Assembly: GCF_010727605.1 (NCBI RefSeq)
Contig: NZ_AP022568.1
Location: 310,001 to 374,000 of the forward strand
Direction: 5' to 3'
Length of the DNA stretch: 64,000 nt
Source of the DNA: Mycobacterium simiae
Lineage (GTDB): Bacteria > Actinomycetota > Actinomycetes > Mycobacteriales > Mycobacteriaceae
Part shown: positions 44,603 through 61,123 of the stretch, one piece after another
Position numbering within the stretch: the first letter of the stretch is position 1
Layout of the letters: every line of letters starts with the position of its first letter
Translations under genes and position numbers: made by a program
Notes under the pieces: generated by a model
Database searches by the model: none
Seen by the model: the letters and a program-made list of their open reading frames with translations, nothing else
What the model was told of the DNA's origin: nothing

Positions 44603-44606
44603 CGGC

Positions 44607-45146: not shown

Positions 45147-45251
45147 GGCCGCGTCGGCGCAGTACTCGGCACGTACCCTGGCAACTATCGGCGACGTCGC
45201 CGGCGAAGTTTGCCGGTGGCCGCGAGGCCGACGGATCGAAACGAGGGTGGA

Positions 45252-45965: not shown

Positions 45966-46140
45966 CCTTCCCGAGCCGAATGTCCGCTGAGCGGACAGCC
46001 GGGTGACGAATCTTTTCAACGACCCTAACTTGGTGCGCAAGGCGTTGGAGCCTCCAATGACGTTGACGCGCATGCTAATACCGTTACACGGCCGCCAGAG
46101 CGGGCACGCGTCATCGCCGCATCGATCGGGGAGTCGTGAA

Positions 46141-47796
46141 ATGACCGCAAGTTCTGACATTAGCGAGGCAGAAGCCGAGCGTGTGGCCCGCTATAGCGAC
46201 GTCGAATTCGACCGGAAGGTCCAGGAAAATCAGCGATACCTGCGCGCTGCGCTGCGCGGCGTTTACGACTTTGTGGTGTGTGGATCAGGCTCTTCCGGAT
46301 CGGTGATCGCGCGCAGACTCGCCGAAAACCCCTTCGTGCATGTTCTTTTACTCGAGGCGGGCAGCGCGGACAACGTGCCAGCCGTCGTGGACCCCCGCGC
46401 CTGGCCGACGAACATCGGGAGCGACCGGGACTGGTGCTATATCGGCGAGCCGGAACCTCACCTGAATGGCCGTCACCTACCGATGGCGATGGGAAAGGTG
46501 CTCGGCGGCGGGTCCAGTATCAATGCGATGGTGTGGTCACGCGGGCACGCCCGCGACTGGGACTTGTTCGCCTACGAGTCCGGCGACCCTGCGTGGAACT
46601 CTCGCTCTGTGTGGGACATCTATCGACGGATCGAGGACTGGCACGGGGATCCCGATCCGGCGTACCGCGGCACCGGCGGCGAGGTGTTTGTCCAGCCTGC
46701 GCCCAACCCCCATCCAGTCGCGCTGGCGATGCTGCAGGGTGCGAAAGCTCTTGGTTTTCCGCATTACGAGAACGCGAATGGCCGCATGATGGAGTCGGCC
46801 CGCGGCGTGGCCATCGGCGATTTGCGGGTATGCGGTGGAAGACGGTTGTCGATCTTCCGGAGCTATACCTACCCCTACCTGGATCGTTCGAACTTAACGG
46901 TCCTTCCCGAGGCACTGGTCCACCGCGTGATCGTCGACAAGCATCGCGCTCGCGGCGTCGAAATCGTTTACCGCGGACGAAAACACGTGGTATTAGCGGA
47001 TTCGGAAGTCGTGCTCTCGCTCGGTGCGATCAACACGCCGAAGGTCCTCATGCTCTCCGGGATTGGCGACCGCGACGAACTCGGCAAGGTCGACATCGAG
47101 GTCGTACATCACCTGCCCGGGGTGGGCCGAAACCTGCAAGATCACACTGCGTTCGACTGTGTCTGGGAATACCCCGATGATGCTCTGCCGCTGCGCAACA
47201 ACGGTTCAGAGGTGGTGGTCTTCGAGCAGATCGATCCCTCGAGCGATACCCCGGACATCTTCATCTGGCAAGCGGAGGCGCCGCTGTCGACACCCGAAAA
47301 CACCGTCAAGTACGGGCTGCCGCCACATGGGTGGACGATGTTCTCCGCGATTGCCCATCCCCGCAGCCGCGGGCGAATACGGTTGTCCAGCAACGACTCA
47401 ACCGCTCCGGCGCTCATCCACACTAATGCGCTGGCCGAGCGTACAGATGTCGACGCGGCGTTGGCCTGTATCGCCCTTTCGCGAGAGATCGGGAACTCGG
47501 CCGAACTGAGGCCGCACGTCAAACGTGAGGTGATGCCGGGCAACCTGTCTGGAAAAGAGCTGGAATCGTTCGCCCGCGACGCGACGCGAACTTTTTGGCA
47601 CCAGTGCGGTACGGCCAAGATGGGGCGCGACGAGATGTCGGTGGTTGACTCCGAGCTCAAGGTCCGTGGCATCGACAACCTCCGTGTCGCCGATGCCTCG
47701 ATCATGCCCCGGATCACGACCGCGAACATCATGGCGCCCTGCGTGATCATCGGTGAGCGGGCCGCCGATCTGTTGCGTTCCACGCACCGAATCTGA
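46141..47796 (+). CDS. GMC-family FAD-dependent oxidoreductase (intact copy)
   Basis: 551 aa alcohol/choline-type dehydrogenase. FAD motif [17 protein letters not shown] (residue 45 on), the signature [23 protein letters not shown], a second signature [18 protein letters not shown], and the active-site His in [11 protein letters not shown]. The second catalytic position, normally Asn or His in the final segment, reads ANIMAP and has Met where relatives have NxNA, so activity may be altered. ATG 46141 chosen because conserved sequence begins soon after and GGGAG precedes it; the frame is open upstream to 46003. Confidence 0.88.
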
Positions 47797-47818
47797 CTTC
47801 CCTGCAGGAGATTTCACC

Positions 47819-48864
47819 ATGATTGATGTTGATTACGTCATTGTCGGAGCCGGGACGGCCGGCTGTGTGCTCGCTGCCCGCCTTTCGCAGGATCCCGATA
47901 CCCGGGTAGCGCTGGTGGAAGCGGGCCCCGCCGAGGGTCCGGCACGCATGTCGGATCCGGCGGCATCGTTCACGCTGTGCGGTTCGCAGGTCGACTTGGG
48001 GATATTCGACCACGCCCCAGGCGGGCACGTGCGGCGCTACTCATCACTATCCGCTGGGACCAGTACTCGGCGGGTCGAGCGCCATTAACGCCGCACTCCA
48101 CTTGCGCGCCAGCCGCGACAGCTACGACGCATGGGCGGGACTCGGCGCCGAGGGCTGGGACTATGAGTCTTTATTGCCGTACCTGGATCGTTGCGAGGGC
48201 GCTGATGATGGTCATCGAACCGGCCGTGCCACGGATGCTCGTCGTCTATCAGCTCGACGAACCATTGTCCGATGACGCAGCCGCCGGTCTACTGCCCTAT
48301 GTGCTGTGTCGCAGCGACGACACGGTTGCCCCCGACATCCAGCTCATCCTCAACCCGGGCCCGTGGGCGCCGCGCTGCTCGGCGTCAACGGAGATCGGTT
48401 ACTCCGTCATGTTCGCCCTGATGTCCCCGACAAGCCGAGGCAGTGTCCGCGCGGTATCGGCGGATCCCGCCGCGGCACCGCTGGTAGACCCGAACTTTCT
48501 GGCCGAAGAACGCGACGTCGAACGCATGGTGAAAGGCCTGCGCCTAGCCCGTCGCATCGGGGCGGGTGAAGCGCTCAGTCGATGGCGACGAGCCGAGCTG
48601 ATGCCGGGCACGACAGTCAATGATGAAGTGGCCCTTGGCGAGTTCGTCCGCCGCAGCGCAACGACCTACTTTCATCCTGTTGGCAGTTGCCGAATGGGCA
48701 ACGACAGCCTCGCTGTCGTCGACAGCGCGCTGTGCGTGCGTGGCATCGAAGGCCTTCGTGTCGCGGACGCCTCCGTCATGCCGGCGATCGTGTCTGCGAA
48801 TACAAACGCGACCGTGCTCGCTATCGCCGAGCGTGCGGCCGAGATCGTGACGCAGCCGAGCTGA
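47819..48864 (+). pseudogene. Decayed GMC oxidoreductase (frameshift plus internal deletion)
   Basis: Remnant of a second GMC enzyme directly after the intact one. The first frame encodes [23 protein letters not shown] up to about 47995. An extra T at 47996-47997 then shifts the frame; removing it restores [13 protein letters not shown]...[14 protein letters not shown] and LHLRASRDSYDAW. Near 48195-48205 about 200 codons are missing and the reading passes to the third frame, which carries the normal C-terminus (HPVGSCRMG, ADASVMPAIVSANTNAT). The total coding content is about 350 codons against more than 500 in the family. Non-functional beyond doubt unless the sequence has errors. Confidence 0.88.
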
Positions 48865-48893
48865 GCGTCGCCACGATCGGCAACGATCGACAG

Positions 48894-50300
48894 TCACGCT
48901 GCGGACGTGCCGGTCGCCCAGCCAGCCGCCGTCTGGTAGGCGTGACCCACGCGTAGCACGGTGTCCTCGTCCCAGACGCGGCCGATGAGCTGTAAACCAA
49001 TCGGCAGGCCGTCGTGGGTGAATCCGCACGGCACCGAAAGCGCGGGCAGACCGGCGAGATTCGCGGGGGCAGAGAACCGGATGTACGCCTGCACCGGCCC
49101 CTCGGTGAGCCCGTCCGGCCAAGTCACCTCGGGCTGGACGGCATCCATCGCGGCGACCGGCACCGTCGGGGTGAGCAGAATGTCGATCTCATCGAAAAGC
49201 GCGTTCCACTGCTGTCGGAAGAGGGCCCGCTTGCGCTGTGCGGCAAGGTAATCCGTCGCCAGGACCGACATGCCGGCCTGCAGTGCCGCACGCACCTCGT
49301 CGGTGTAGAGATCGCCGTGCTCGCGCAGCATGTCCCGGTGAAAACTGGTCGCCTCGGGCTGCAGGATGCCGAACTCGGTATCCATCACCTCCTCGGTCAG
49401 CGGCAGCCGGACTTCTCGCAGCCGCACCCCCAGATCGGCCAGTCGGGCGCACGCCGCCTCGACGGCGCCGCTGACCTGTGGATCGAGGTGCTCGGTGAAG
49501 AAGTTCACCGGGACCCCGGCCGTCGTCCCGGCCACATCGCGGCGCAGCCCGGCCGTGAAGTCCGGTACGGGAATGTCTCGCGAACCGGGGTCGCGCGGGT
49601 CATACCCGGCCATCACGTTCATCGCCAGTGCCGCGTCCTCGACGGTGCGGGTCAGCGGGCCGGCGTGATCCAATGACTCCGCGAACGGTGTCACGCCCGT
49701 GCGGGACACCCTGCCGTAGCTGGGTTTGAGCCCCACGGTGCCGCACAGCGCGGCGGGGATGCGGATGGAACCGGCGGTGTCGCTGCCCAACCCGAGGAAG
49801 CACGCCCCGACGGCGACGGCCGCCGCCGAACCCCCGCTGGATCCGCCCGCGATGCGGTCGGCGCGCCATGGGTTGCGGGTCTGGGGGGTGACGACTCCGT
49901 AGGCGAACTCGTGGGAGTGCGTACGCCCCACTACCACCGCGCCGGCCTCGCGCAGCTTTGCGACGACAACGCTGTCCGCGTCGGGCCGGTAATCCGCGCG
50001 CACGCGGGAGCTCGAGGTGCTCGGCATCCCGGCCATGTCGTAGATTTCCTTGACCCCGATCGGGATTCCGTGTAGCGGTCCGCGATACCGGCCTACCGCG
50101 ATCTCCTGTTCGGCCCGGGCCGCGGTCTCGGTGGCCAGCTCCGCGGTGACGTTGCTGAACGCGTTGATCCGCTGGTCCACCTCGTCGATGCGAGCCAGCA
50201 CCGACTCGGTCAGCTCCACCGGCGACAACGCCCTGGCCCGGATCTGCCGAGCGGCCGCGGCCAGGGTCAATTCATAGGGCTGCACGAAAACTAGCCTCAT
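48894..50300 (-). CDS. Amidase-signature family amidase
   Basis: 468 aa. The Ser-cisSer-Lys triad is visible: Lys in GIPIGVKEIYDMAG, the Gly/Ser-rich loop GGSSGGSAAAVAVG and the nucleophile Ser in GSDTAGSIRIPAALCG. It could hydrolyse amides of small carboxylic acids or act as a GatA-like enzyme, but it is isolated from gatB/gatC so a catabolic role is more likely. Divergent from the alpha/beta hydrolase gene across a 9-bp-armed inverted repeat. Confidence 0.9.
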   Translation of the reverse strand: MRLVFVQPYELTLAAAARQIRARALSPVELTESVLARIDEVDQRINAFSNVTAELATETAARAEQEIAVGRYRGPLHGIPIGVKEIYDMAGMPSTSSSRVRADYRPDADSVVVAKLREAGAVVVGRTHSHEFAYGVVTPQTRNPWRADRIAGGSSGGSAAAVAVGACFLGLGSDTAGSIRIPAALCGTVGLKPSYGRVSRTGVTPFAESLDHAGPLTRTVEDAALAMNVMAGYDPRDPGSRDIPVPDFTAGLRRDVAGTTAGVPVNFFTEHLDPQVSGAVEAACARLADLGVRLREVRLPLTEEVMDTEFGILQPEATSFHRDMLREHGDLYTDEVRAALQAGMSVLATDYLAAQRKRALFRQQWNALFDEIDILLTPTVPVAAMDAVQPEVTWPDGLTEGPVQAYIRFSAPANLAGLPALSVPCGFTHDGLPIGLQLIGRVWDEDTVLRVGHAYQTAAGWATGTSAA

Positions 50301-50315
50301 CCGTCAAGCGATAAG

Positions 50316-50343
50316 ATAACGACCACTATACTACGGTTGTTAT
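50316..50343. promoter_or_regulatory. Inverted repeat in the amidase-hydrolase divergent promoter
   Basis: ATAACGACC, ten bases, GGTTGTTAT: 9-bp arms with one mismatched pair, in an AT-rich patch between the divergent genes. The spacing of the arms (about two helical turns centre to centre) suits a dimeric repressor. The TetR encoded at 51863 is the nearest candidate. Confidence 0.55.
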
Positions 50344-50464
50344 GCCGACCGCAAGCCCCGCGATGCTCGCAGGGTATGGAGCGGCGTCCGATTCGGTATT
50401 GGACCGCCCGGGGTTGACTATGGAAACGTCTCTAGCGCAACGCATTCCAGAAAGTGAGGAACCG

Positions 50465-51373
50465 ATGCTGCGCGAGGATGTCACGTTCGATGCCGAAGGC
50501 GCCCTGCTGCACGCCTGGTGGTACCCCGCACAGCAGGTGCGCGGCCCGAGCCCGTGCGTGGTGATGGCGCATGGGTGGACGTCGACCAAGAAAATCCATC
50601 TCGACAAATTCGCCGCGGTGTTCGCCGCGGCGGGGCTATGCGTGCTGGTCTTCGACAATCGGGGCTGGGGCGAATCCGGGACCGCGCCCGGAAAGCCCCG
50701 GCACGAGGTCGACCCGTGGGAGCAGATCCGCGACTATCAGCACGCAATCACGTTCGCGCAGAACCGATCCGAAGTGGACCCCGAACGAGTGGGGGTCTGG
50801 GGAACCAGCTTTTCCGCGGCCCACGCGTTCGTCGTCGCGGCGATCGACCGTCGGGTGCAAGCCGTCTGCGGTCAAGCCCCGTTCATCAGCGGGCGGGCCA
50901 CCTACGCCAACCTCGCCCGGGTCAACAATCAGGTGGTCGGTCCGGGTTGCTTCACGGCGGATCGACGCGCTCGCGCGCGCGGCGAGCCGCCGGCCGTGGT
51001 GCCGGTGGTCGGGACGGACCCGGCCGTGCTGGTGGGACTGCCGAGTGCGGACGCCTACCAATTTTTCACCCACGCGCGGGCGGAGTTGGATCCGCAGTGG
51101 CCCAACGAGGTGACGCTACGCAGCCTGGACAACTTCTACGGATACGAACCGGCGCGTTACCTGCCCGACATCACGCCGACCCCGCTACTGATGATCGTCG
51201 GCCGCGAGGACGGTCTCACGGGTGGCAACCTCGCGGCCGCCGCGTACCAGACGGCCGCCGAACCGAAGAGCATCGTGTTCGTTCCCGGGGGCCATTTCGC
51301 CGCCTACACCGGCGACGGCTTCGCGCTGGCGTCGCGGGCCGCCCGCGATTGGTTCACCACCCACCTGGGTTAG
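50465..51373 (+). CDS. Alpha/beta hydrolase (dienelactone hydrolase/YcjY-like)
   Basis: 302 aa. VVMAHGWTSTKKIHLDKFAAVFAAAG and VLVFDNRGWGESG define the core; nucleophile elbow GVWGTSFSAAHAFV (Ser near residue 118), Asp in LMIVGREDGLTGG, His in VPGGHFAAY. ATG 50465 is preceded by GTGAGGAA; upstream in-frame starts at 50342 and 50420 add no conserved sequence. Small ester or lactone substrate likely. Convergent with the SnoaL-like gene. Confidence 0.85.
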   Translation: MLREDVTFDAEGALLHAWWYPAQQVRGPSPCVVMAHGWTSTKKIHLDKFAAVFAAAGLCVLVFDNRGWGESGTAPGKPRHEVDPWEQIRDYQHAITFAQNRSEVDPERVGVWGTSFSAAHAFVVAAIDRRVQAVCGQAPFISGRATYANLARVNNQVVGPGCFTADRRARARGEPPAVVPVVGTDPAVLVGLPSADAYQFFTHARAELDPQWPNEVTLRSLDNFYGYEPARYLPDITPTPLLMIVGREDGLTGGNLAAAAYQTAAEPKSIVFVPGGHFAAYTGDGFALASRAARDWFTTHLG

Positions 51374-51849
51374 GAAAAGTACGCATCGAACGAGTCGATG
51401 TCCGTGAGATGCGCTGTGACCTCGGAGATCTTGTCGCCGCGGATGGTCAGCACATTGACCACGTCCTGGTCGAGCCGCTTGCCGTTGTGCTCGCCGGTGT
51501 CGTGCAGCGTGACGGCGACGGTGTCGCGGCCAAAGGCGAATCCCTGCGGAGAGATATGCAGTTCGTACTGGGCGAAAGTGTCCGCGAGCCGGGTAATGTC
51601 GCCGATCCCGGTCGCCCGGCCGGACACCACGCTGGAACCCGGAATGGTCCAGGCGATGTCGTCAGTGGCGTGTTCGGCGATGCCTGCGTGGTCGTCGTGC
51701 ACGATGGCGCTGGCGAACGCACCAACGATCGCCCGCTGCTGCTGGGTGGTCGGCTCGTCCGGAGCCGCGGACGAGGCGCCGCCGGGCCCAAGGCACACCA
51801 GCACCGTAGCGATCGCCGCACCCATCAAGGTCTCGTGTAGCGTCCGCAA
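51370..51849 (-). CDS. Secreted or anchored SnoaL/NTF2-like protein
   Basis: 159 aa. A hydrophobic N-terminal segment (LMGAAIATVLVCLGPGGASSAA, beginning a few residues in) looks like a signal peptide or anchor; the rest is an NTF2-like cone fold: QQRAIVGAFASAIVHDDHAGIAEHATDDIAWTIPG and KRLDQDVVNVLTIRGDKISEVTAHL. TTG at 51849 has GAGAGGAG seven bases upstream; the ATG at 51825 has none, so TTG is preferred. Fourteen bases after the TetR gene, hence probably its co-transcribed partner. Confidence 0.65.
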   Translation of the reverse strand: MRTLHETLMGAAIATVLVCLGPGGASSAAPDEPTTQQQRAIVGAFASAIVHDDHAGIAEHATDDIAWTIPGSSVVSGRATGIGDITRLADTFAQYELHISPQGFAFGRDTVAVTLHDTGEHNGKRLDQDVVNVLTIRGDKISEVTAHLTDIDSFDAYFS

Positions 51850-51862
51850 GGCCCGGCTCCTC

Positions 51863-52462
51863 TCAATTCCGTTGCTTGCCAGCAGACTTGCCCGGAGAAA
51901 TGAGCCGGTCGATGGTCTCCCGCGTGTCATCGAGCACGCTGGCACGCGGACCCGTGTCGGGCATGGCGCGCGCGATCGACACCGCCCCCACCAGTAGAGC
52001 GACGATGCTCCACGCCCGGCGTTCCCGATCGGCGCCGTCGAGCAGCTCAGCCACCCGCTGCGCCAGCTCGGCGATCTTACGTTCGTAGGTCTGCCGGGTG
52101 GCCGTTCCCGACCGCGCCACGTCGGCGCTCAACGTCGGCATCACGCATCCGTCGGCGGGGTGATCGATGTGGTAGACGCTGAGGTATTCCGCGACAAAGC
52201 TGTTCAGCTTTTCTCGGCGCTCGGACTTGCTGCCCTGCTGCGCGTCGGACAGGAACGGCTCACCGAGCGAGGCGTCGATGATCGCCTGCAGCATCGCCTC
52301 TTTGTTGGCGAAATTCGAGTAGAACGCCCCGGAGGTGACATCGGCCGCGGCCGCCAGGCCGTCGACCCCGATCCCGTGGAAACCGGAAACCTTCATCGAC
52401 TGCGTGCCCGCGCGCAACAGCGCGGCGCGTGCTCTGGCTTTATGGTCCGGCGGATACCTCAT
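51863..52462 (-). CDS. TetR-family transcriptional regulator
   Basis: 199 aa. HTH GVDGLAAAADVTSGAFYSNFANKEAMLQAII at about residues 31-62, followed by a C-terminal domain of the type with FVAEYLSVYHIDHPADGCVMPTLSADVARSG. That Cys-containing signature resembles regulators of aldehyde or electrophile response (AcrR/NemR-like), though no ligand can be assigned. A GCATAA/TTATGC dyad lies 16-38 bases upstream of its start. Confidence 0.85.
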   Translation of the reverse strand: MRYPPDHKARARAALLRAGTQSMKVSGFHGIGVDGLAAAADVTSGAFYSNFANKEAMLQAIIDASLGEPFLSDAQQGSKSERREKLNSFVAEYLSVYHIDHPADGCVMPTLSADVARSGTATRQTYERKIAELAQRVAELLDGADRERRAWSIVALLVGAVSIARAMPDTGPRASVLDDTRETIDRLISPGKSAGKQRN

Positions 52463-52477
52463 GATGAGAACTTTATA

Positions 52478-52500
52478 GCATAACTATCGGTATCTTATGC
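52478..52500. promoter_or_regulatory. Candidate operator upstream of the TetR gene
   Basis: GCATAA, eleven bases, TTATGC: perfect 6-bp arms in an AT-rich stretch between the LysR stop and the TetR start. Placement suits TetR autoregulation. Confidence 0.45.
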
Positions 52501-53391
52501 GGGCGAGGCCGGGTCGATGGTCTGCCCGGCACACGCCACGGCCGCGGCGATGAACTCGTCGCGGGCCGCGTCGGCAATCGCGCCGTCCCACGCCAGCACC
52601 ACCTGACTGGGAGCGAGATCGTCGGCCGGCACCACCCGCAGGTCCGGGCGCCGATAGGCCATGGCCGTCGACCGGGGCAGCACCGCGAAGCCGGCGCGCG
52701 CGGCGACCAGCTCGAGCTTCTGCTCCACGCCGGTAACCGAGGACTGCACCGCCTCGCGACGCCGTTGCGGGCTGGCCAGCGCATACCACTCAGGCACGGA
52801 TGCCGGGTTCTGCAGCAGCCGCCGCGAGGCCAGGTCCGCCAAGGACACCGACGGCCGTTTGGCCAGCGGGTCATCGGCGGGTAGCACCACATCTCGGGGT
52901 TCCTCCAGCAGCGGCGTGGTCGCCAACTCGGCGAGATCGAACGGCGAGCGAGCGTAGACCAGCTGCACGTCGCCGCGGCGGACCACCTCGGCCTGTTCGG
53001 CCCAGGTCACCGGCACAATCACGACACGCCGCCCCGGGCCGGCTGCTTCGAATGCCCGCGCGGCGGCCGTCGCGAACAAGCCCGGCAGCACCCCGACGGT
53101 GACCACCACGTCGGGGCCGTCGGCTCGGGAGAGCCGGTGCCGCAGCGCCTGCGCCTCGGTGAGCAGGAATCGGCCGTCTTCGAGCAGCCGCGACCCGGCG
53201 GCAGTCAAGGTGGTGCCGCGGCTGTCCCGGTGCAGCAACGTGACGCCGAGTTCGTGCTCGAGCGCACGAATCTGGCGCGACAGCACCGGCTGGGCGATAT
53301 GCAGGCGGGCCGCAGCGCGGCCGAAGTTGAGTTCCTCCGCAACGGCGACGAAATAGCGCAGCTTGCGCATGTCCAAATCCGCGGGGGCCAT
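52495..53391 (-). CDS. LysR-family transcriptional regulator
   Basis: 298 aa. N-terminal HTH LDMRKLRYFVAVAEELNFGRAAARLHIAQPVLSRQIRALE in outline (residues 5-45) and effector domain from about residue 90 (VVVTVGVLPGLFATAA). Divergent from the SDR gene at 53463 with a 71-nt intergenic region, the usual LysR arrangement, so it probably controls that gene. Distinct from the LysR at 13761. Confidence 0.88.
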   Translation of the reverse strand: MAPADLDMRKLRYFVAVAEELNFGRAAARLHIAQPVLSRQIRALEHELGVTLLHRDSRGTTLTAAGSRLLEDGRFLLTEAQALRHRLSRADGPDVVVTVGVLPGLFATAAARAFEAAGPGRRVVIVPVTWAEQAEVVRRGDVQLVYARSPFDLAELATTPLLEEPRDVVLPADDPLAKRPSVSLADLASRRLLQNPASVPEWYALASPQRRREAVQSSVTGVEQKLELVAARAGFAVLPRSTAMAYRRPDLRVVPADDLAPSQVVLAWDGAIADAARDEFIAAAVACAGQTIDPASPA

Positions 53392-53462
53392 ACCGAAAGG
53401 GTATCGCTGCGGAGCGAAAAGGGTGTTGGACGGGTCGAGTCGGCCGTAGCAACCCTGGAGGC

Positions 53463-54179
53463 ATGAGTGTGCACTTCCAGCGCGTCCTGATCATTGGCGG
53501 AACCTCGGGCATCGGCCTGGCGGTGGCCGCCGCCGTTGCCGAACGCGGCGCGACACCCATCGTCGCTTCGCGCCGCGCGTCCAGCGTCGAGCGGGCCCTG
53601 GGCTCGCTACCTTCCGTCGCGGTCGGTGCCACGGTCGACCTCGCCGACCCGAACTCCATCGAAACGCTGGCCGAGCAGGTGGGCGACGTCGACCATTTGG
53701 TCTACACCGCGGGCGAACCGCTGCAGATGGTTCCGCTGGCCGAGCTGTCACCGGAGCTGATCACCGGCTTCTACCAAACTCGCTTCGTCGGCGCCTGCAG
53801 CGCCGCCCGGGTGTTCGGGCCGCGCCTGCCGGTGGGCGGCTCGATCACCCTGACCAGTGGATCGGCCAGCGAGCAGCCCGAATTCGGTGTGCTGCCGGTG
53901 AGCCTGTGCGGCGCGATGAACGCGCTGACCACCGCGCTGGCGGTCGAGCTGGCCCCGGTGCGGGTGAACGCCGTCGCGCCCGGCATGGTGCGCTCCCCGT
54001 TGTGGGACACCATGGCCGAGGCCGACCGGGACATGATGTTCTCCGAAGCGGCACAACGTATCCCACTCGGACGGATCGGCACGGTCGAGGAGGTGGCGCG
54101 GGCCTACCTCTACTGCATCGAACAGCCTTATGCCACCGGCGCGGTGATCAAGGTCGACGGCGGCAGCGTGCTCCGCTAG
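53463..54179 (+). CDS. Short-chain dehydrogenase/reductase lacking the YxxxK motif
   Basis: 238 aa SDR fold. Cofactor loop GGTSGIGLAVAAAVAERG, a Ser in ITLTSGSASEQP and the late NAVAPGMVRSPLWDTM are intact. Where the catalytic Tyr and Lys should lie (normally YxxxKAA), the sequence reads SLCGAMNAL, so neither is present. It may be a non-classical SDR or a binding protein. GGAGG is one base from the ATG, too close; it stands seven bases before a GTG two codons later, so the true start may be 53469. Converges with the flavoprotein gene, overlapping 4 nt. Confidence 0.82.
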   Translation: MSVHFQRVLIIGGTSGIGLAVAAAVAERGATPIVASRRASSVERALGSLPSVAVGATVDLADPNSIETLAEQVGDVDHLVYTAGEPLQMVPLAELSPELITGFYQTRFVGACSAARVFGPRLPVGGSITLTSGSASEQPEFGVLPVSLCGAMNALTTALAVELAPVRVNAVAPGMVRSPLWDTMAEADRDMMFSEAAQRIPLGRIGTVEEVARAYLYCIEQPYATGAVIKVDGGSVLR

Positions 54180-56881
54180 CCACCGGCAGCGGCCGAGTCC
54201 AGCGCCCGCCGCGCATAGGCGCGCACATCGGCGTCGCTGTCCTTGAGCGCCCGGCCCAGCGCGTCACGGGCGGCGGCATTACCGGCCCAGCGGGTCAGGC
54301 TCAGTACCGCCGCCTTCCGCACGTCGAGGTGGGCGTCGGACAACGCCTCGGCCAGCAGGGGCACCGCGCTTTCGGTCGCGGCCGCGGCCAGCGCGCGTGC
54401 GGCGCCCTCGCGTATCTGCCACGCCGGTGCTCGCAGCGAACGTTCGACGGCAACCAAATCGTCTTGGCTGCAACCTAATTCGGCCAGAGCCGTCAACGCC
54501 GCGGCCCGCACCAGCGGGTCTGGGTCGCCGATCAGTGCGCGAACGGCCGCGCCACCGGCGCGCAGCGTGGCCAGGCCGGCGGCAGCCGCGATCCGCACCT
54601 CCCTGCTCTCGTCGCGGGCGGCCCGCTCGACGCCCACCACGTCGTCGACCGACACCAAGGCGCGCACCGCCTCGCTACGCACCCGGTGGTCCGGGTCGTC
54701 CAGCGCGCGACGGTAGTGGCCGGCCGCACCGACGCGGCGGGCGGCCAGCAGATACACCGCGGCCGCGCGGACGACCGTATCGGGCGACGCCAGATACGGT
54801 TCCGCGCCGGCCGGTTCGGGCAACACCTCGACCAACTCGCGGATGCCCGCGGCGCTGGTGCGCCGCACCCCCGCGTCGGCGTCGTCGAGCGCGGCGAACA
54901 GGGCCGGCGCGTAGCCGTCCGGGATGTGTTCGGTCAGGGTGGCCACGGCGGTGCGGCGCACCCCGGGATCGGTGTCGGCCAGGTACGGCCGCAGATCGGC
55001 GATCGTGGGCTCCTCGAGGGCGAGCACCTCGGCGATCCGCGGTGACGGCGGCTCGGACGCGGTGGCGGCGGCAGTGATCCGCGTCGCGGCGGTGGCCGGC
55101 GCTTTGCCGCCCACCAGCGGCGGCTGCTGCACCGGGTGCACCGCCTGGTCCGCCGGCGGCAGGCCGTCCAGCTCCGGCACCGACACCAGGTAGGGCGCGA
55201 CGGGACGCTTGAGGAACACCATGTCGCCGTCGGGTGCCTTGCGCAGGTTGAGGTGATAACCCCAGTCGCTGTCATCGCGGACCGGCAGGTCGGCGCGCTC
55301 GTGGTAGAGGCCCCAGCGCGATTCGGTGCGGGTGAGCGAGGACCGCGCGGCCATCTCCGCGCAGTCGCGGATGAATGACACCTCGACGGCCCGCATCAAC
55401 TCGTGCGGGGTACGCGCCCCCAGCTCGGCGATTTCGGCTTGCATCCGGTCGAACGTGCGCACCGCGATGGACAGTTTGGCGGCCGTCTTGGGCGGCGCCA
55501 CATAGTCGTTGACGAAGCGGCGGAGCTTGTATTCGACCTGCGGCTGCGGCGGGCCGTCCGGATGCCGCAGCGGGCGATAGATCAGCTCGTGCGCCTCGCG
55601 CAGCTGATCCTGCGGGAGCTGTTGCGGCGCGGCCACTTCGGTGCGCAATGAGGCGGCGTGGGTGCCGGCGAGGTCGCCGAATACGAACGCGCCGATCATG
55701 TAGTTGTGCGGGACGCAGGCCAGGTCTCCGGCCGCATACAGCCCCGGGACCGTGGTTCGGGCGTGCTCGTCGACCCAGACCCCGGATGCCGAATGGCCGC
55801 TGCACAAACCGATCTCGGAGATGTGCATCTCGATGTCGTGGGTGCGGTAGTCGTGTCCCCGGTTGGCGTGAAAGGTGCCGCGGGTGGGACGTTCGGTGGT
55901 GTGCAGAATGTTCTCCAGCGCGGTGAGCGTCTCATCGGGCAAGTGCGAGACCTTCAGATAGATCGGACCGCGCGCGGAATCGATCTCCCGTTTCACCTCC
56001 GAAATCATCTGCCCGGACCAGTAGTCGGAATCGACGAAGCGCTCACCGGCCGCGTTGACCTGGTAACCGCCGAACGGGTTGGCCACATAGGCGCACGCCG
56101 GCCCGTTGTAGTCCTTAATCAGCGGATTGATCTGGAAGCATTCGATGCCGGACAGCTCGGCACCGGCGTGGTAGGCCATCGCGTACCCGTCGCCGGCGTT
56201 GGTCGGGTTCTCGTAGGTGCCGTACAGGTAGCCCGACGCCGGCAACCCGAGCCGGCCACACGCGCCGGTCGCCAGAATCACCGTCTTGGCGCCGACGGCG
56301 ACGAATTCGCCGGTCCGCGTGTTCAACGCGGCGGCACCCACCGCCCGGCCGGCATCGTCGGGGTCTGTCAGCACCCGCACCGGCATCAGGCGGTTCTCGA
56401 TGCGGATCTTCTCCCGCATCGACCGTTGCCGCAGCACCCGATAGAGCGCCTTCTTGACGTCCTTGCCCTCCGGCATCGGCAACACGTAGGAGCCGGAGCG
56501 ATGCACCCGGCGGACCGCGTACTCGCCGTGCTCGTCCTTTTCGAACTTGACGCCGTAGCGTTCCAGCCGTTGCACCATCGCGAAGCCGCGGGTGGCCGTC
56601 TGGTAGATGGTGCGCTGGTTGACGATTCCGTCGTTGGCGCGGGTGATCTCCGCGACGTAATCCTCGGGCTCGGCCTTGCCCGGGATGACGGCGTTGTTGA
56701 CGCCGTCCATGCCCATCGCCAGCGCGCCGGAGTGGCGCACGTGCGCCTTCTCCAGCAGCAGGACCTGCGCGCCCGCCTCGGCCGCCGACAGCGCCGCCAT
56801 GGTCCCGGCGGTGCCGCCGCCGATGACCAGCACGTCGCAGTCCAGCCGCTCCGGCGTTGCCGGGTCGGGAATCTGCATCAC
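54176..56881 (-). CDS. APS-reductase/fumarate-reductase-like flavoprotein with nine C-terminal HEAT repeats
   Basis: 901 aa. Residues 1-600 form the FAD flavoprotein of the fumarate/succinate/adenylylsulfate reductase superfamily: VLVIGGGTAGTMAALSAAEAG, LEKAHVRHSGALAMGMDGVN, NPTNAGDGYAMAYHAGAELSG and GLYAAGDLACVPHN; the helical C-domain of the family follows. From about 620 to the end there are nine tandem HEAT-type repeats of some 30 residues, each with a (D/S)xxVRxxAxxxL pattern. These repeats are not part of known APS or fumarate reductases and suggest a docking surface. Last gene of the GntR-ferredoxin-ABC operon; the GTG/ATG start overlaps the ATPase stop. Substrate unknown; probably the compound imported by the transporter. 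Confidence 0.85.
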   Translation of the reverse strand: MMQIPDPATPERLDCDVLVIGGGTAGTMAALSAAEAGAQVLLLEKAHVRHSGALAMGMDGVNNAVIPGKAEPEDYVAEITRANDGIVNQRTIYQTATRGFAMVQRLERYGVKFEKDEHGEYAVRRVHRSGSYVLPMPEGKDVKKALYRVLRQRSMREKIRIENRLMPVRVLTDPDDAGRAVGAAALNTRTGEFVAVGAKTVILATGACGRLGLPASGYLYGTYENPTNAGDGYAMAYHAGAELSGIECFQINPLIKDYNGPACAYVANPFGGYQVNAAGERFVDSDYWSGQMISEVKREIDSARGPIYLKVSHLPDETLTALENILHTTERPTRGTFHANRGHDYRTHDIEMHISEIGLCSGHSASGVWVDEHARTTVPGLYAAGDLACVPHNYMIGAFVFGDLAGTHAASLRTEVAAPQQLPQDQLREAHELIYRPLRHPDGPPQPQVEYKLRRFVNDYVAPPKTAAKLSIAVRTFDRMQAEIAELGARTPHELMRAVEVSFIRDCAEMAARSSLTRTESRWGLYHERADLPVRDDSDWGYHLNLRKAPDGDMVFLKRPVAPYLVSVPELDGLPPADQAVHPVQQPPLVGGKAPATAATRITAAATASEPPSPRIAEVLALEEPTIADLRPYLADTDPGVRRTAVATLTEHIPDGYAPALFAALDDADAGVRRTSAAGIRELVEVLPEPAGAEPYLASPDTVVRAAAVYLLAARRVGAAGHYRRALDDPDHRVRSEAVRALVSVDDVVGVERAARDESREVRIAAAAGLATLRAGGAAVRALIGDPDPLVRAAALTALAELGCSQDDLVAVERSLRAPAWQIREGAARALAAAATESAVPLLAEALSDAHLDVRKAAVLSLTRWAGNAAARDALGRALKDSDADVRAYARRALDSAAAGG

Positions 56882-57648
56882 GCCGCCACCGCCGAATGGT
56901 CCAGTGCCGCAATGACTTCGGCACGAAGAGTGCCGCGCTGCCGATCGGCGCGCGGGTCCGGCACCTCGACTAGGGCGCGCAGCGGTTGACCGGCCCTGCC
57001 GAGCACGACTATCCGGTCACCCAGCAGCAGCGCCTCGTCGACATCGTGGGTGACGAAGACGATCGTGGTCGGGTGCGCGCTCCAGGTCTCGATCAGCAAC
57101 CGCTGCATCGCCGTGCGGGTCTGGGTGTCCAGCGCGCCGAACGGCTCGTCCATCAGCACCGCACGCGGCGCGCCGGCCAACCCGCGGGCCAGCTGCACCC
57201 GTTGGCGCATGCCGCCGGACAGACTCTTGGGCAGGTAGTCGCCGAAGCCGGTGAGGCCGAGTTCGGCGATCCAGCGGTCGGCCTCCGCACGTCGGCCGGC
57301 ACGCGGGACACCGCGCAACCGCAGCGCCAGCTCGATGTTGGAGCGCACGGTGCGCCACGGCAGCAGCGCGTTGTCCTGGAACACCATGCCGCGATCACCC
57401 GAGGTGCTCCTCACCTCAGCGCCGTCGGCGACGATGCACCCGGCATCCGGGCGCAGCAGCCCGGCCAAGGCGCGCAGCACCGTCGACTTGCCGCAACCCG
57501 ACGGCCCGGTGAGCACCAGGATCTCGCCGGGACGCACGGTCAGGCTCAGGTCGTCGATCACCGGTACTCCGGTATAGGACAGGCGAACTCGGTCCAGTTC
57601 GAGGCGCATGGCATTGCTTGCATTGCTTGCATGGCTTGCAGTGGTCAT
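56878..57648 (-). CDS. ABC transporter ATP-binding protein (nitrate/sulfonate/taurine type)
   Basis: 256 aa. Walker [10 protein letters not shown] (residue 48 on), Q-loop [13 protein letters not shown], signature [15 protein letters not shown], Walker [13 protein letters not shown] and H-loop [13 protein letters not shown]. The LLPWRTV and DEPFGALD wording matches SsuB/TauB-type importers. The N-terminus encodes a short Ala-Ser-Asn repeat from a 9-nt tandem DNA repeat; ATG 57609 after the repeat is an alternative start. Start overlaps the permease stop by 4 nt. Confidence 0.92.
57611..57640. repeat. Nine-base tandem repeat at the start of the ATPase gene
   Basis: Three copies of GCATTGCTT (the third as GCATGGCTT) plus GCA. 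In-frame, encoding Ala-Ser-His-Ala-Ser-Asn-Ala-Ser-Asn on the minus strand. A unit length divisible by three lets copy number vary without frameshift. Confidence 0.8.
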
Positions 57649-58517
57649 CGTTGCTCCTCCTGCGCGCGCGGCAGCCAGCTGGTCACCCGACGGCCCAGCA
57701 CTTCGACGGCCGCGGCGGTCGAGAATCCCAGCACGCCGATGGTGATGATGCCGACGAACACCTGCGGATACGCCAGCACGGTGTAGTCCTGCCAGGTGCG
57801 GTAGCCGATGCCGAGCCGGCCGGAGATCATCTCCGCGGAGATCACGCAGATCCACGCCACCCCCATGCCGACCGACAGGCCGCCGAACACCCCGGGCAGG
57901 ATGCCCGGCAGCACCACCTGTGTGAGGACGTCCCACCGATTGCCACCGAGCGTGCGCACCGAGTCTTCCCACAGGGTGGGCAGCGCCCGCACCGCGTGCC
58001 GGGTGCTGACCATGATCGGGAAGTAGCCGGCCAGGAAGGTGATGAACACGATGCCGGCCTCGTCGGTCGGGAACAACAGGATCGCCACCGGAACCATCGC
58101 GATCGCCGGGACGGGCCGGGCCAGCTCGGCCAGCGGACCAAAAGTGTTGGCGAACAAGCGGGATCGACCCAGCAGCACGCCCGTCACGACGCCGATGACG
58201 GCGGCCAGCCCGAACCCGGTGAGGATCCGGATCAACGACTGCGCCAGGTCGAGCCAGTACTCGTAGGTTCCCAGCCGGCGGCCCAGCGCGTGCATGATGT
58301 CGGTGACGGTGGGCAGCGTGTCGAAGCGCAGCAGCAACCGCACCTTGTCGGCGGTGAGCAGCTGCCACAACCCGATCGCCGCGAGGACCGATGCCAGCCG
58401 CAGTAGCCGCCACTGCCACGGCGAGCCGGCCCGCCACGGTGCGCCGGCCACCGGGGCCGCGTCGAGGGCCTGCGCCGACACCGTGGCTGCCGGGTCGCCG
58501 GTGAGATAAGCGGTCAT
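57645..58517 (-). CDS. ABC transporter permease (nitrate/sulfonate/taurine type)
   Basis: 290 aa, about six transmembrane helices after a soluble N-terminal stretch of 35 residues. The cytoplasmic EAA loop is visible in TLGGNRWDVLTQVVLPGILPGVFGGLSVGMGVAW, and family wording appears in RPVPAIAMVPVAILLFPT. Forms the channel with a homodimer of itself and the ATPase encoded downstream. ATG at 58517 overlaps the lipoprotein gene stop by 4 nt. Confidence 0.92.
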   Translation of the reverse strand: MTAYLTGDPAATVSAQALDAAPVAGAPWRAGSPWQWRLLRLASVLAAIGLWQLLTADKVRLLLRFDTLPTVTDIMHALGRRLGTYEYWLDLAQSLIRILTGFGLAAVIGVVTGVLLGRSRLFANTFGPLAELARPVPAIAMVPVAILLFPTDEAGIVFITFLAGYFPIMVSTRHAVRALPTLWEDSVRTLGGNRWDVLTQVVLPGILPGVFGGLSVGMGVAWICVISAEMISGRLGIGYRTWQDYTVLAYPQVFVGIITIGVLGFSTAAAVEVLGRRVTSWLPRAQEEQR

Positions 58518-59902
58518 ACCGAACCTCCAAGGGCTTGCTGGTAATTCACGATGGCGCCGCCGGGATGCGCGGCCAGATAACGATGCGCACCGGCCGGCGT
58601 GCCGAACGGTAGGTAGTTCGGGCCGTCGCGCACCCAGACCGCCTTGTCGGCGAACCATCGGGTGCCCAGCTCGGCGTCGGGAATGTAGGCGGCGCGCACC
58701 TTGCCGCCGCGGGCGGTCGCGTCCCGGATCGCGCGGAGCAGGCTGGTCGGATCGGCCACGGTTTGGGTGGATTTCGTTCCATCCAGCCACAATTCACTGG
58801 CTCGTGCCGGGTCACCGCGCAGCGCCGACGGGTTGGCCGTGGCCGTCCTGACCGTGTCGTAGTTCAGTCCGCGAGCACCGAACACGGCGCGTAGCGGCGC
58901 GTCCTGCACGAAGCCGCTGACGTCGAGTTCGGCGAAGTCGCCGATCGACTTCAGGTAGGGCACATCGTTTTTCAGTGCCTCGATCAGCGACGGCTTGAGG
59001 GTGGTGTCGAACGACGTCCCACCGGGACCGTTGTACAGGTACACCACTTCCGGCGGCAGGCCGCTCGCCTGCGCCACGATGCGGGCCGCCTCCAGCGGCT
59101 TGGAGTTGAGGAAGTCGGTGGCGTCCAGTTGGGCCTGCAGGAAGGCCGCCAGCACTTCGGGGTGCGCGGCGGCGTAGGCGCGTCGCACCACGACGCCGTG
59201 CAAGGTGGGCAGGTTCAGTTCGGCGCCGTCGTACAGCAATTTCGCCTTGCCTTGGAATACCAGCAGCCCCGGCCAGGCGACGAACTGCGAAAGGCCCTGC
59301 ACCTGACCGGATTCCAGGGCTGAAGCGCCGACCTGTGGCTGCTGGTTGAGCACTTCGACACCGCGGATCCCAGCCCGGTCCAGGGCCCGCATCAGGGTGC
59401 CGTGTCCCGCCGAACCGACACTGGCCGAGACCTTGGACCCGGCCAGATCGTTCAACGCGGTGGCCGACGACCCGGGCGTGACCACCACCATGTTCAGCGC
59501 GCCCTTGGGGTTGTAGCCGGTGATCGAGACAATCTCGGTTTTCGCCAGCGGGTTGGCCTGCGTCTTGGAGCCGTTGATCAGCATGGGGTAATCCCCCATC
59601 GAGCCGATGTCGATCTTCTCGGCGAGCATCTGCGCGGTGATCGGGGCACCGGTGTCGTAGTCCTGCCATCGCACCGCGTATTTGGTGCCGGTGCGGGCGG
59701 TGATGTCGGCGAGCCGATGCTCGAGGTAGCCTTGCGCCCGCAGCAACGTCCCGGCGGTCACGGTGTTGATGGTCTTGGACTGATAGCCGATGACGACGTT
59801 GACCACGCCGGAGGTCGCCGACAACGATTCCAGCGAGCAGCCGGACATCAGGGCGACTACGGCCGCGATCGAAATCAACTTCGCGGCAAGGTGTTTCATC
59901 AT
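58514..59902 (-). CDS. ABC importer substrate-binding lipoprotein
   Basis: 462 aa. Signal peptide MMKHLAAKLISIAAVVALM followed by the lipobox MSGC (lipidated Cys 22), so anchored on the outer face of the plasma membrane. The mature part is an NMT1/SsuA-like binding protein: VVNVVIGYQSKTINTVTAGTLL, IDIGSMGDYPMLINGSKTQ, KVSASVGSAGHGTLMRALDRAG. About 130 residues longer than a typical SsuA, due to the C-terminal part. ATG ATG start overlaps the ferredoxin stop by 4 nt. Ligand not deducible; family ligands include sulfonates, nitrate, taurine and thiamine precursors. Confidence 0.9.
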   Translation of the reverse strand: MMKHLAAKLISIAAVVALMSGCSLESLSATSGVVNVVIGYQSKTINTVTAGTLLRAQGYLEHRLADITARTGTKYAVRWQDYDTGAPITAQMLAEKIDIGSMGDYPMLINGSKTQANPLAKTEIVSITGYNPKGALNMVVVTPGSSATALNDLAGSKVSASVGSAGHGTLMRALDRAGIRGVEVLNQQPQVGASALESGQVQGLSQFVAWPGLLVFQGKAKLLYDGAELNLPTLHGVVVRRAYAAAHPEVLAAFLQAQLDATDFLNSKPLEAARIVAQASGLPPEVVYLYNGPGGTSFDTTLKPSLIEALKNDVPYLKSIGDFAELDVSGFVQDAPLRAVFGARGLNYDTVRTATANPSALRGDPARASELWLDGTKSTQTVADPTSLLRAIRDATARGGKVRAAYIPDAELGTRWFADKAVWVRDGPNYLPFGTPAGAHRYLAAHPGGAIVNYQQALGGSV

Positions 59903-60129
59903 CGTAACAGGTACGGCATGTTGACGGTGACGGCGCCGGTCGGGCAGCGCGCCGCGCAGGGGCCGCAGTACCAGCATTCGTCGACGTGCATGTACGCCTT
60001 GCCGGTGTCGGGGTTGATGGCCAGCGCATCCAGCGGACAGATCTCGACGCACAGCGTGCAGCCGTCAATACACAGCGATTCGTCGACGGTAACCGGCACG
60101 TCGACTCGGTTGTTGTTGATCAACGTCAT
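59899..60129 (-). CDS. Small 2[4Fe-4S] ferredoxin, AprB-like
   Basis: 76 aa. Two cluster motifs: CIDGCTLCVEICP and CWYCGPCAARCP, with the CP-type fourth ligands crossed as in bacterial ferredoxins and APS-reductase beta subunits. N-terminal strand VPVTVDESLC. Likely electron partner of the flavoprotein at the operon's far end. ATG has AAGGAG six bases upstream and overlaps the GntR stop by 4 nt. Confidence 0.92.
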   Translation of the reverse strand: MTLINNNRVDVPVTVDESLCIDGCTLCVEICPLDALAINPDTGKAYMHVDECWYCGPCAARCPTGAVTVNMPYLLR

Positions 60130-60863
60130 GGCTTACTCCTTATTAGGTTGCCGCGCATGGTGATTCGGTCTCCCCGCATCCGGATGTACTCCAGGTCGAC
60201 GGGAGTACCGTCGTCCAGGCTGGTGAGACGCTCGAGCATGAGCACGGGCGCGCCGTCGGGCACCTGCAACATGGCCGCGGAGTGCGCGTCGGCCGGAATG
60301 GCTTCCAGCGCCAGCGACGCCGAGCCCAGTGACCGCCCGGCCACCTGCTCGATGAGTGCGAACACATCGTTGGTTTCCAAGGAATGCTGCAGGATTCGGC
60401 CGCCGATCTCGCGAGTGAGATAGGTCAGGTCGAGGCTGAGCGGCAGGTCGCCGAGGTAGCGCAGGCGCTCGATGAACACGGCCTGCTCGCCGGGCGCCAG
60501 GTGCAGCCGGCGAGCCACGGCCGGCGGCGCGACCACGGACATGGCGGCGCGCACCTCGTTGCGGACCTCGCCGACATGTTTGAACGTCTCCTTGAGACCG
60601 AGCAGGGAGTCGATCCGGTGGTCGTACTTGCGTTGCGCGACGTGAGTGCCGACCTTGGGACCGCGGTCGATCAGGCCCTCGTGTTTGAGAATGCCCAGCG
60701 CCTCGCGAATGCTGTTGCGCGACACCGAGAATTCGGCCGCCAGATCGCTTTCGGCCGGCAGCCCGTCCGGATAGGCCGCGGCGTGAATCTGCTGACGGAG
60801 CACGTCGGCAACCCGGCGGGCACGGTCGGCCCGGGGTCCTCCGATGGGTATCGCCGCCGCCAC
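60126..60863 (-). CDS. GntR-family regulator with UTRA domain
   Basis: 245 aa HutC-type regulator. Winged HTH at about 10-75 (LPAESDLAAEFSVSRNSIREALGILKHEGLIDRGPKVGTHVA in outline) followed by a UTRA ligand domain (LHLAPGEQAVFIERLRYLGDLPLSLDLTYLTREIG). First gene of the operon, leaderless GTG start, so it probably autoregulates the operon in response to the imported substrate or a metabolite. Confidence 0.9.
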   Translation of the reverse strand: MAAAIPIGGPRADRARRVADVLRQQIHAAAYPDGLPAESDLAAEFSVSRNSIREALGILKHEGLIDRGPKVGTHVAQRKYDHRIDSLLGLKETFKHVGEVRNEVRAAMSVVAPPAVARRLHLAPGEQAVFIERLRYLGDLPLSLDLTYLTREIGGRILQHSLETNDVFALIEQVAGRSLGSASLALEAIPADAHSAAMLQVPDGAPVLMLERLTSLDDGTPVDLEYIRMRGDRITMRGNLIRSKP

Positions 60864-60875: not shown

Positions 60876-61123
60876 ACGCAGCTCAGCGGCGCATTTTGGG
60901 CTCGCGGTCAGCGTCGGCACCGGCGGGGCAGCGTATTACGCCGGGTGCCCTTCCTCGGCGACCAGCGCAAATCGGAGCCCCGGCGGCTATTACGCCACCT
61001 GGGCAAACGCCCAGGCTTTGTGATCCCGGTGAGCCGAACGTCTGGATACCGGCGACCACGCCGACGAGCGGCCGGGTTGTCGCTCGACGGTGACCACGGC
61101 AGGTCCTGCGGCGGGTGAGAGCG
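60876..61123. other. Gap between GntR operon and decarboxylase gene
   Basis: About 250 bases with no supported gene, upstream of the GntR operon and downstream of the decarboxylase stop. No clear terminator hairpin with a T-run, as usual in mycobacteria. Confidence 0.4.

Follow-up and report, generated by a model that had tools for sequence, protein, structure and literature searches.

An import-and-redox operon of Mycobacterium simiae with a ferredoxin-linked flavoprotein: comparison with AsfRABC, AprAB and SsuABC and a possible role in sulfite release

AsfRABC, which serves arylsulfonate desulfonation, is described in the available text of PMC4267179 for Pseudomonas putida S-313 and also for Rhodococcus, Variovorax, Cupriavidus and Actinobacteria. 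According to the same text, it combines a flavoprotein reductase, a ferredoxin, a sulfonate-type substrate-binding protein (SBP) with its ABC transporter, and a regulator of its own. Here, we describe an operon of similar composition in a stretch of 64,000 nucleotides from Mycobacterium simiae (GCF_010727605.1, contig NZ_AP022568.1, positions 310,001 to 374,000), which we refer to as the window. The six genes encode a GntR/UTRA regulator, a two-cluster [4Fe-4S] ferredoxin, an SBP, an ABC permease, an ABC ATPase and an FAD flavoprotein. As far as tested, the operon appears to be nearest to AsfRABC in logic and not a member of that system by sequence. We tentatively propose, with a probability of about 0.45, that it would be a module under GntR control that imports an organic anion bearing SO3 and releases sulfite from it with electrons from the ferredoxin.

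Other described systems share parts of this design. The isethionate reductase IsrBHDK of Rhodobacter capsulatus, in the accessible portion of PMC11423573, likewise joins an Ssu-type importer to a low-potential reductase and is proposed to cleave a C-S bond with release of sulfite; in contrast, it uses a nitrogenase-like enzyme and a radical SAM protein and is anaerobic. SsuABC and TauABC have the same SBP, permease and ATPase families and the sulfonate-contacting Gln, but their solved SBP chains have about 300-350 residues, whereas the window SBP has 462 and carries a NosL-like domain; moreover, all three window proteins miss the SsuABC/TauABC cut-offs, and the window operon contains no SsuD or TauD. 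The Methanothermococcus PAPS reductase (8a8o; PMC10322725, available sections) and AprAB resemble the operon products in the flavoprotein fold and the two-cluster ferredoxin, and probably also in a Trp beside a cluster. Finally, the annotation families NF010374 (PRK13800) and NF006131 (PRK08275), to which the flavoprotein belongs, bear only the generic name 'fumarate reductase/succinate dehydrogenase flavoprotein subunit'.

No study of the module was found in the literature, although subscription papers were mostly outside the search. The accessible parts of expression papers on R. qingshengii IGTS8 and M. avium paratuberculosis contained no recognisable match to the module, and module-related terms were absent from those of a paper on Gordonia and benzothiophene. 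The original prediction, made from the sequence of the window, knew of no characterised system with this composition in mycobacteria; it left unnamed AsfRABC of P. putida S-313, which is similar in logic.

Gene content and conservation of the module

The operon consists of six minus-strand genes at 54176-60863 in the 5'->3' order gntR, ferredoxin (fdx), SBP, permease, ATPase and flavoprotein. Its features are as follows.

60126..60863, minus strand: GntR/UTRA (HutC-type) regulator, 245 aa (Pfam UTRA 106 bits, GntR 53.5 bits)
59899..60129, minus strand: two-cluster [4Fe-4S] ferredoxin, 76 aa (Fer4)
58514..59902, minus strand: SsuA/TauA-type SBP, 462 aa (TIGR01728 111 bits, cut-off 163.5)
58514..58831, minus strand: NosL-like C-terminal domain of the SBP (about residues 358-462)
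57645..58517, minus strand: ABC permease, 290 aa (BPD_transp_1 64 bits)
56878..57648, minus strand: ABC ATPase, 256 aa (ABC_tran 112 bits)
54176..56881, minus strand: FAD flavoprotein, fumarate reductase/AprA fold, HEAT domain fused at its C-terminus, 901 aa (NF010374, NF006131)
54176..55042, minus strand: HEAT repeats at the flavoprotein C-terminus (about residues 614-900; Pfam HEAT_2 92.8 bits)

The six families and their 4-nt overlaps had been predicted earlier, and we verified the coordinates, all five overlaps in the window and the domains, namely UTRA with GntR, an eight-Cys ferredoxin, an SsuA/TauA-type SBP, a BPD permease, an ABC ATPase and, for the fumarate-reductase-type flavoprotein, FAD_binding_2 with Succ_DH_flav_C. 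The HEAT fusion, the NosL-like SBP domain and an operator-like element 5' of gntR had been overlooked.

A genome scan with the flavoprotein gave at least 584 confirmed places, of which the best 80 were analyzed; all of these were titled as mycobacteria in the broad sense. The five partners were found 5' of the flavoprotein in the window's order in 74 of these 80 loci. Five of the six exceptions end at a contig edge, and one is real: in M. terramassiliense (L019, 7982-9001), gntR, ferredoxin and flavoprotein genes are closely spaced without SBP, permease and ATPase, a natural transporter-less version. Across the 74 complete loci, the 4-nt overlap recurs 64 times at gntR/fdx, once at fdx/SBP, 71 times at SBP/permease, 73 times at permease/ATPase and 60 times at ATPase/flavoprotein; four of the five overlaps are therefore conserved, and the fdx/SBP overlap is nearly peculiar to the window. 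The closest named flavoprotein relative among the best 80 was that of Mycobacterium sherrisii (94% identity), and another protein was 99% identical. These identities place the host among the non-tuberculous mycobacteria, close to the M. simiae group.

The flavoprotein exceeded the NF006131 cut-off in 119 of 248 sampled Mycobacterium species (120 matched at E 1e-150). The module is common and reaches three phyla, yet its flavoprotein is named only generically by NCBI. Twelve genomes of a 396-genome Actinomycetota sample also exceeded this cut-off, and none of the 14 control genomes did. Six of the 12 were outside the Mycobacterium sample, and each of these six had all six genes in the same order; a Nonomuraea record and a plasmid of Tsukamurella did as well.

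When plasmids were searched with the flavoprotein core, 319 records matched, and in 141 of them a single place spanned 80% or more of the query; the best 48 rows showed at least 54% identity over at least 96% of the query. We hand-picked 24 plasmid stretches, of which 22 were module loci and 20 of these were annotated. In all 20 annotated loci, from three phyla, the flavoprotein was accompanied by the ferredoxin and a HEAT-repeat protein, the latter encoded by a separate gene in Proteobacteria and Cyanobacteria and fused to the flavoprotein in Tsukamurella. The trio of SBP, permease and ATPase was complete in 16 of the 20; it was not seen in the fetched stretches of Nostoc, M. japonicum pMLa and Acidithiobacillus caldus, and for S. 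americanum, where the gene table is incomplete, the ATPase alone was listed. The two unannotated loci (Nonomuraea and Variovorax) had all six genes by tblastn, with a different order in Variovorax. The original prediction had named co-occurrence of the six families elsewhere as one of its tests, and across phyla the families were indeed found together.

Judged by gene content, the window operon is the actinobacterial edition of a conserved bacterial gene set. In this edition, a single gene at the end of the operon encodes both flavoprotein and HEAT domain, and NF010374 extends over the two. The window C-terminus matched the Cupriavidus HEAT protein weakly (33%, E 1e-6, in repeat sequence), and the fusion claim therefore rests mainly on gene content; the Cupriavidus protein also scored 75 bits against the HEAT section of NF010374. 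In a Mesorhizobium plasmid (L131:9948-10905), the HEAT gene was annotated as two overlapping open reading frames and is possibly a frameshifted copy.

Flavoprotein and ferredoxin compared with APS/PAPS reductases and AsfAB

The flavoprotein scored 1744 bits with NF010374 (cut-off 1196; residues 2-896) and 867 bits with NF006131 (cut-off 587; residues 11-570). Beyond these two, its best NCBIfam family was the APS-reductase alpha model NF005331 with 259 bits against a cut-off of 557, and it remained below the AprA model TIGR02061 (143 bits, cut-off 642). By both sequence and fold, the nearest solved relative was the PAPS reductase alpha subunit 8a8o, followed by AprA. Upon alignment, Arg265, Glu141, Gln145, Trp234 and Phe261 of AprA were found to be replaced by Leu254, Ser129, Val133, Tyr223 and Gln250, respectively, while AprA Asn74 was kept as Asn62 and His346 of the Methanothermococcus enzyme (MtPAPSR) as His363. 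We take Arg265 and His398 of AprA (A. fulgidus numbering) to be the catalytic pair and presume that the positions of Glu141, Trp234, Phe261 and Asn74 line the active site; His363, matched with MtPAPSR His346 in the alignment, may correspond to His398. Gln145 is named among the APS-reductase site residues in the available sections of PMC10322725.

Leu254 and His363 were invariant in alignments of 15 and of 72 family members, and residues 206-275 were mostly invariant or nearly so across the 72 flavoproteins. The flavoprotein thus appears to be a dedicated enzyme whose fixed substrate is neither APS nor PAPS. In the AF2 model, residues 206-365, which contain the aligned active-site positions, mostly had pLDDT values below 50, and we therefore claim no active-site geometry. 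The HEAT domain was modelled as a helical repeat, with ten-residue pLDDT means of 80-95 over residues 621-900.

The ferredoxin has eight Cys residues, with a CX3C first motif in the window in place of CX2C. Trp53, directly after the fifth Cys, was invariant in 15 of 15 ferredoxins. Trp42 of MtPAPSR is proposed as the electron conduit to FAD (PMC10322725, available sections), and Trp53 would stand at the same place, as judged from the aligned ranges 13-69 and 3-58 rather than from a residue-level alignment.

These data bear on whether the operon encodes a true APS or PAPS reductase, or a reverse-Apr sulfite oxidase, with a private importer. The nearest solved relatives, the ferredoxin partner with its invariant Trp and the conserved His363 would all suit such an enzyme. 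However, the NF005331 and TIGR02061 scores are far below their cut-offs, the ferredoxin reached only 33 bits on the AprB model TIGR02060 (cut-off 136), the presumed catalytic Arg265 is an invariant Leu, the nucleotide-binding residues are lost, with Ser and Val at the Glu141 and Gln145 positions, and a HEAT domain is added. We consider this reading extremely improbable, since the residues already speak strongly against it; residues and family scores together led us to reject APS reduction or sulfate reduction proper. Of the AprA/AprB likeness drawn in the original prediction, it is the fold relationship that these data support.

We also compared the operon with Asf. The asf pair of C. metallidurans CH34 is named Rmet_4334/5 in the accessible text of PMC2864759. 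Three places on the CH34 megaplasmid matched the window flavoprotein, none above 30% identity; the presumed AsfA, which adjoins a 4Fe-4S ferredoxin gene and is presumed to form the Rmet_4334/5 pair with it, showed 27% identity over 406 residues and an NF006131 score of 56 bits, compared with 867 bits for the window protein. AsfRABC further differs in its LysR regulator, in contrast to GntR/UTRA in the window, and a HEAT partner or a NosL-like SBP domain is not mentioned in the available text of PMC4267179. Membership in Asf was rejected on sequence, regulator and gene order, with a presumed CH34 AsfA and the megaplasmid as the basis of the sequence comparison. The NifA-dependent sulfonate operon Bphy_7232-37 of P. 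phymatum (PMC8305402, available portion) was rejected as a source of expression data on the module, the best flavoprotein match on pBPHY01 having 24% identity. In CH34 (L089:949-3750), a gene carrying a membrane fatty-acid-desaturase domain (PF00487, 102 bits) precedes the presumed asfA; its product might be a di-iron oxygenase that works with classic AsfAB.

The main rival to direct sulfite release follows from Asf: the flavoprotein and ferredoxin may leave the sulfonate itself untouched and instead supply an oxygenase from another locus, such as an SsuD-like FMN monooxygenase, with electrons, the role attributed to AsfA/AsfB in arylsulfonate desulfonation. AsfRABC is built from the same set of components, and asfA mutants lose the use of aromatic sulfonates (PMC4267179, available text). 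LLM or NtaA/DmoA monooxygenases adjoin the module in three plasmid loci, and SsuD-like genes were found in 105 of the 120 Mycobacterium genomes with the module and in 74 of the 128 without it (p 2e-7 by Fisher's test), an association that ignores shared ancestry and genome size. Nevertheless, 15 of the 120 module-positive genomes had no SsuD-like match at E 1e-90, the SsuD cut-off itself was passed in only three of the 248 genomes, and the module includes no constant oxygenase gene. The pocket region is also conserved very strictly, which fits a substrate enzyme more than a generic electron carrier. Taken together, we regard electron supply to a remote oxygenase as unlikely.

Binding protein, sulfur context and proposed reaction

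The SBP has a lipobox-like N-terminus (Cys22). In the profile search, its four best solved relatives were three sulfonate-binding proteins and TauA, whereas proteins for PQQ and bicarbonate scored much lower. Gln41 aligned with the glutamine of the SsuA GYQ motif and Gly85 with TauA DSG (taken as Gly61), and both were invariant in all 12 SBPs; TauA contacts the sulfonate via Gln30 and Gly61, as stated in the available portion of PMC6906117. The permease scored 123 bits with ntrB, 110 with TauC and 99 with SsuC, all under the cut-offs, and the ATPase scored 216 bits with the taurine ATPase model (cut-off 357).

In a non-sulfur role, the module would import a carboxylate, a nitrogenous or an aromatic anion and reduce or oxidise one of its C-C or C-N bonds by fumarate reductase or aspartate oxidase chemistry. 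This would accord with the general FAD_binding_2/Succ_DH_flav_C family of the flavoprotein and with an SBP family that has members for nitrate, bicarbonate, PQQ and thiamine precursors as well; by fold, the SBP matched Thi5, NrtA, CmpA and PqqT at Z-scores similar to that of SsuA. Yet the best sequence relatives of the SBP are all sulfonate or taurine binders, the closest relatives of the flavoprotein are APS/PAPS reductases and not FrdA, and sulfite exporters and other sulfur genes recur near the module. A non-sulfur substrate is likewise an unlikely explanation in our judgement.

The C-terminal domain of the SBP raises a further possibility. Pfam (PF05573) detected a NosL-like domain in 10 of 12 SBP C-terminal pieces, six above the cut-off, and the window's own C-terminus was NosL-like by fold, its matches including 7og7, which is labelled a NosL copper chaperone. 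The SBP model had a mean pLDDT of 60, with the C-terminal part modelled better. Mrp/NBP35 or DUF971 genes also accompany the core in several plasmid loci. On this basis, the domain could handle copper or another soft metal, and the module could import or repair a metal-sulfur compound. The domain invariants are Trp372, Asp409 and Phe433, however, and the SBP alignment shows neither a Cys nor a Met among them; the Gln that contacts the sulfonate is conserved, and none of the fetched annotated neighbours was named for copper. We consider a metal-linked role very unlikely.

The neighbourhood of the module was typed on the plasmids. Five of the six TauE/SafE genes in 20 module plasmids (9.43 Mb) fall in module loci, one of them only partly, whereas these loci make up 3.6% of the plasmid bases. 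In S. americanum, the module adjoins TauD and sulfate/sulfonate ABC genes, and in Paraburkholderia, genes for 3-mercaptopropionate dioxygenase, rhodanese and an LLM oxidoreductase; sulfonate binding proteins are encoded nearby in Nostoc. Overall, a sulfur-specific neighbour beyond the module's own importer was present in eight of the 20 annotated loci by strict typing, with Nostoc included, and in 10 when flavin monooxygenases were counted. The SBP relatives and pocket, the TauE/SafE genes and the other sulfur neighbours therefore favour a sulfur substrate and sulfite release. The substrate would be a sulfonate; a sulfamate or a sulfate ester is less likely.

Several observations weigh against this proposal. 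The SBP, permease and ATPase are all under the cut-offs of the sulfonate and taurine models. M. terramassiliense has lost the transporter yet kept the enzyme genes, so import need not depend on the module's ABC transporter. Three of the five TauE/SafE genes come from cyanobacterial clusters that resemble one another, and small plasmids (44, 79 and 111 kb) are among those counted; about three independent events make the enrichment weaker than the raw count. Twelve of the 20 plasmid loci lack a strictly sulfur-specific neighbour, the background rate refers to TauE/SafE alone, and neighbour typing was systematic for the plasmid loci and not for the mycobacterial ones. Since the AprA site residues are replaced, APS chemistry is not simply transferable to the flavoprotein. 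Moreover, attack of flavin N5 on a sulfonate would have to expel a carbanion, which leaves poorly.

For sulfite release, we envisage the following sequence. The lipid-anchored SBP would capture the anion by its SO3 group through the conserved Gln41, and the ABC importer would bring it in. The two-cluster ferredoxin would dock on the flavoprotein as AprB does on AprA and supply the FAD with low-potential electrons by way of its Trp. Once reduced, the flavin would cleave the bond to SO3, freeing sulfite for assimilation, while the HEAT domain may scaffold the complex or aid its assembly and GntR would derepress the operon when the ligand appears. It is more doubtful whether the flavoprotein and ferredoxin form a new enzyme class, an AprAB-fold reductive desulfonase with its own importer that needs neither O2 nor an FMNH2 monooxygenase. 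The coupled uptake-and-redox unit put forward in the original prediction, perhaps for an organosulfur anion, is thus supported by co-occurrence, SBP relatives and sulfur neighbours; the substrate, product and reaction direction we infer.

If the proposal is true, soil and opportunistic mycobacteria would have an aerobic, ferredoxin-driven route of sulfur acquisition, and the AprA fold would have a use outside sulfate reduction. About half of the mycobacterial species sampled would then carry a desulfonase, and so would Proteobacteria and Cyanobacteria.

Genes that may supply electrons were seen at two loci. In M. radiotolerans (Methylobacterium; L132:15377-16508), genes for FdxA and a ferredoxin-NADP reductase lie directly 3' of the module's ATPase gene and are likely an NADPH-to-ferredoxin feed. 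In A. caldus pTcM1 (L103:10102-14035), the core is followed by fdxA and the gene of a 1153-residue FAD oxidoreductase with a modest Pyr_redox_2 match. Both arrangements suggest that electrons flow into the flavoprotein.

Regulator and upstream DNA element

The best NCBIfam match of the GntR protein was PhnF, with 96.5 bits and under the cut-off of 156.8. Among the 20 annotated plasmid loci, the regulator adjoining the module was GntR/UTRA in seven, Crp/Fnr in eight and LysR in only three, all cyanobacterial, with none listed in two. In Pseudanabaena (L095:5652-7664), the LysR protein has about 670 residues and its C-terminal half is homologous to the module's SBP (32%, E 1e-49); similar LysR-SBP genes are listed in the cyanobacterial loci L097 and L129, the SBP comparison having been made on L095. 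A LysR protein that ends in an SBP copy fits substrate-induced control.

Conserved DNA was found 5' of gntR, with the following features; the coordinates of the two blocks are derived from an alignment of 71 sequences.

60935..60996, minus strand: two direct repeats GGCGYAAT, 54 nt from start to start, probable operator
61023..61038, minus strand: conserved block TTnnnnTCAnCnnGAT 5' of the repeats (alignment columns 9-24)
60961..60971, minus strand: conserved block TTTnnnCnGGT between the repeats (alignment columns 77-87)

The upstream regions of the 74 loci and the window (n = 75) were scanned for pairs of GGCGCAAT-like boxes at 53- or 54-nt spacing. The best pair matched at 14-16 of 16 positions in 73 regions and at 13 in the other two, whereas none of 750 shuffled regions reached 14 and three reached 13. 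Both further blocks keep nearly fixed distances to the boxes. The strict pattern had one match in the window, compared with a mean of 0.00 in 100 shuffles. In eight other genomes, it was found at the operon in five and nowhere in three, in which the boxes deviate or were not examined further; a single off-operon match in these genomes was out of register with the intervening block, and the reversed control pattern had none. A tight match was also present 5' of gntR in L146, a locus outside the Mycobacterium sample, and the strict scan had none in the other eight loci scanned alongside it.

A riboswitch 5' of gntR was considered and rejected. Neither a tRNA nor an Rfam family at its gathering cut-off was found in the 64-kb window. 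For the 71 aligned sequences, RNAalifold gave only four pairs with -3.5 kcal/mol, between the two self-complementary GCGC boxes; this value exceeded those of 20 column shuffles (mean -0.02). Because only four pairs are formed, the element most likely acts as DNA, and it is most simply read as the site of the operon's own GntR.

At the other end of the operon, a short-chain dehydrogenase/reductase (SDR) gene is convergent with the flavoprotein gene and overlaps it by 4 nt at the flavoprotein stop. About 9.6 kb of the window (44603-54175), including the SDR gene and LysR and TetR genes, separates the flavoprotein from a PF00144 serine hydrolase. A homologue of this hydrolase is present in 57 of the 80 mycobacterial loci and ends less than 1 kb from the flavoprotein in 20 of the 25 matches listed. 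The 44603-54175 stretch is probably an insertion in the window's lineage.

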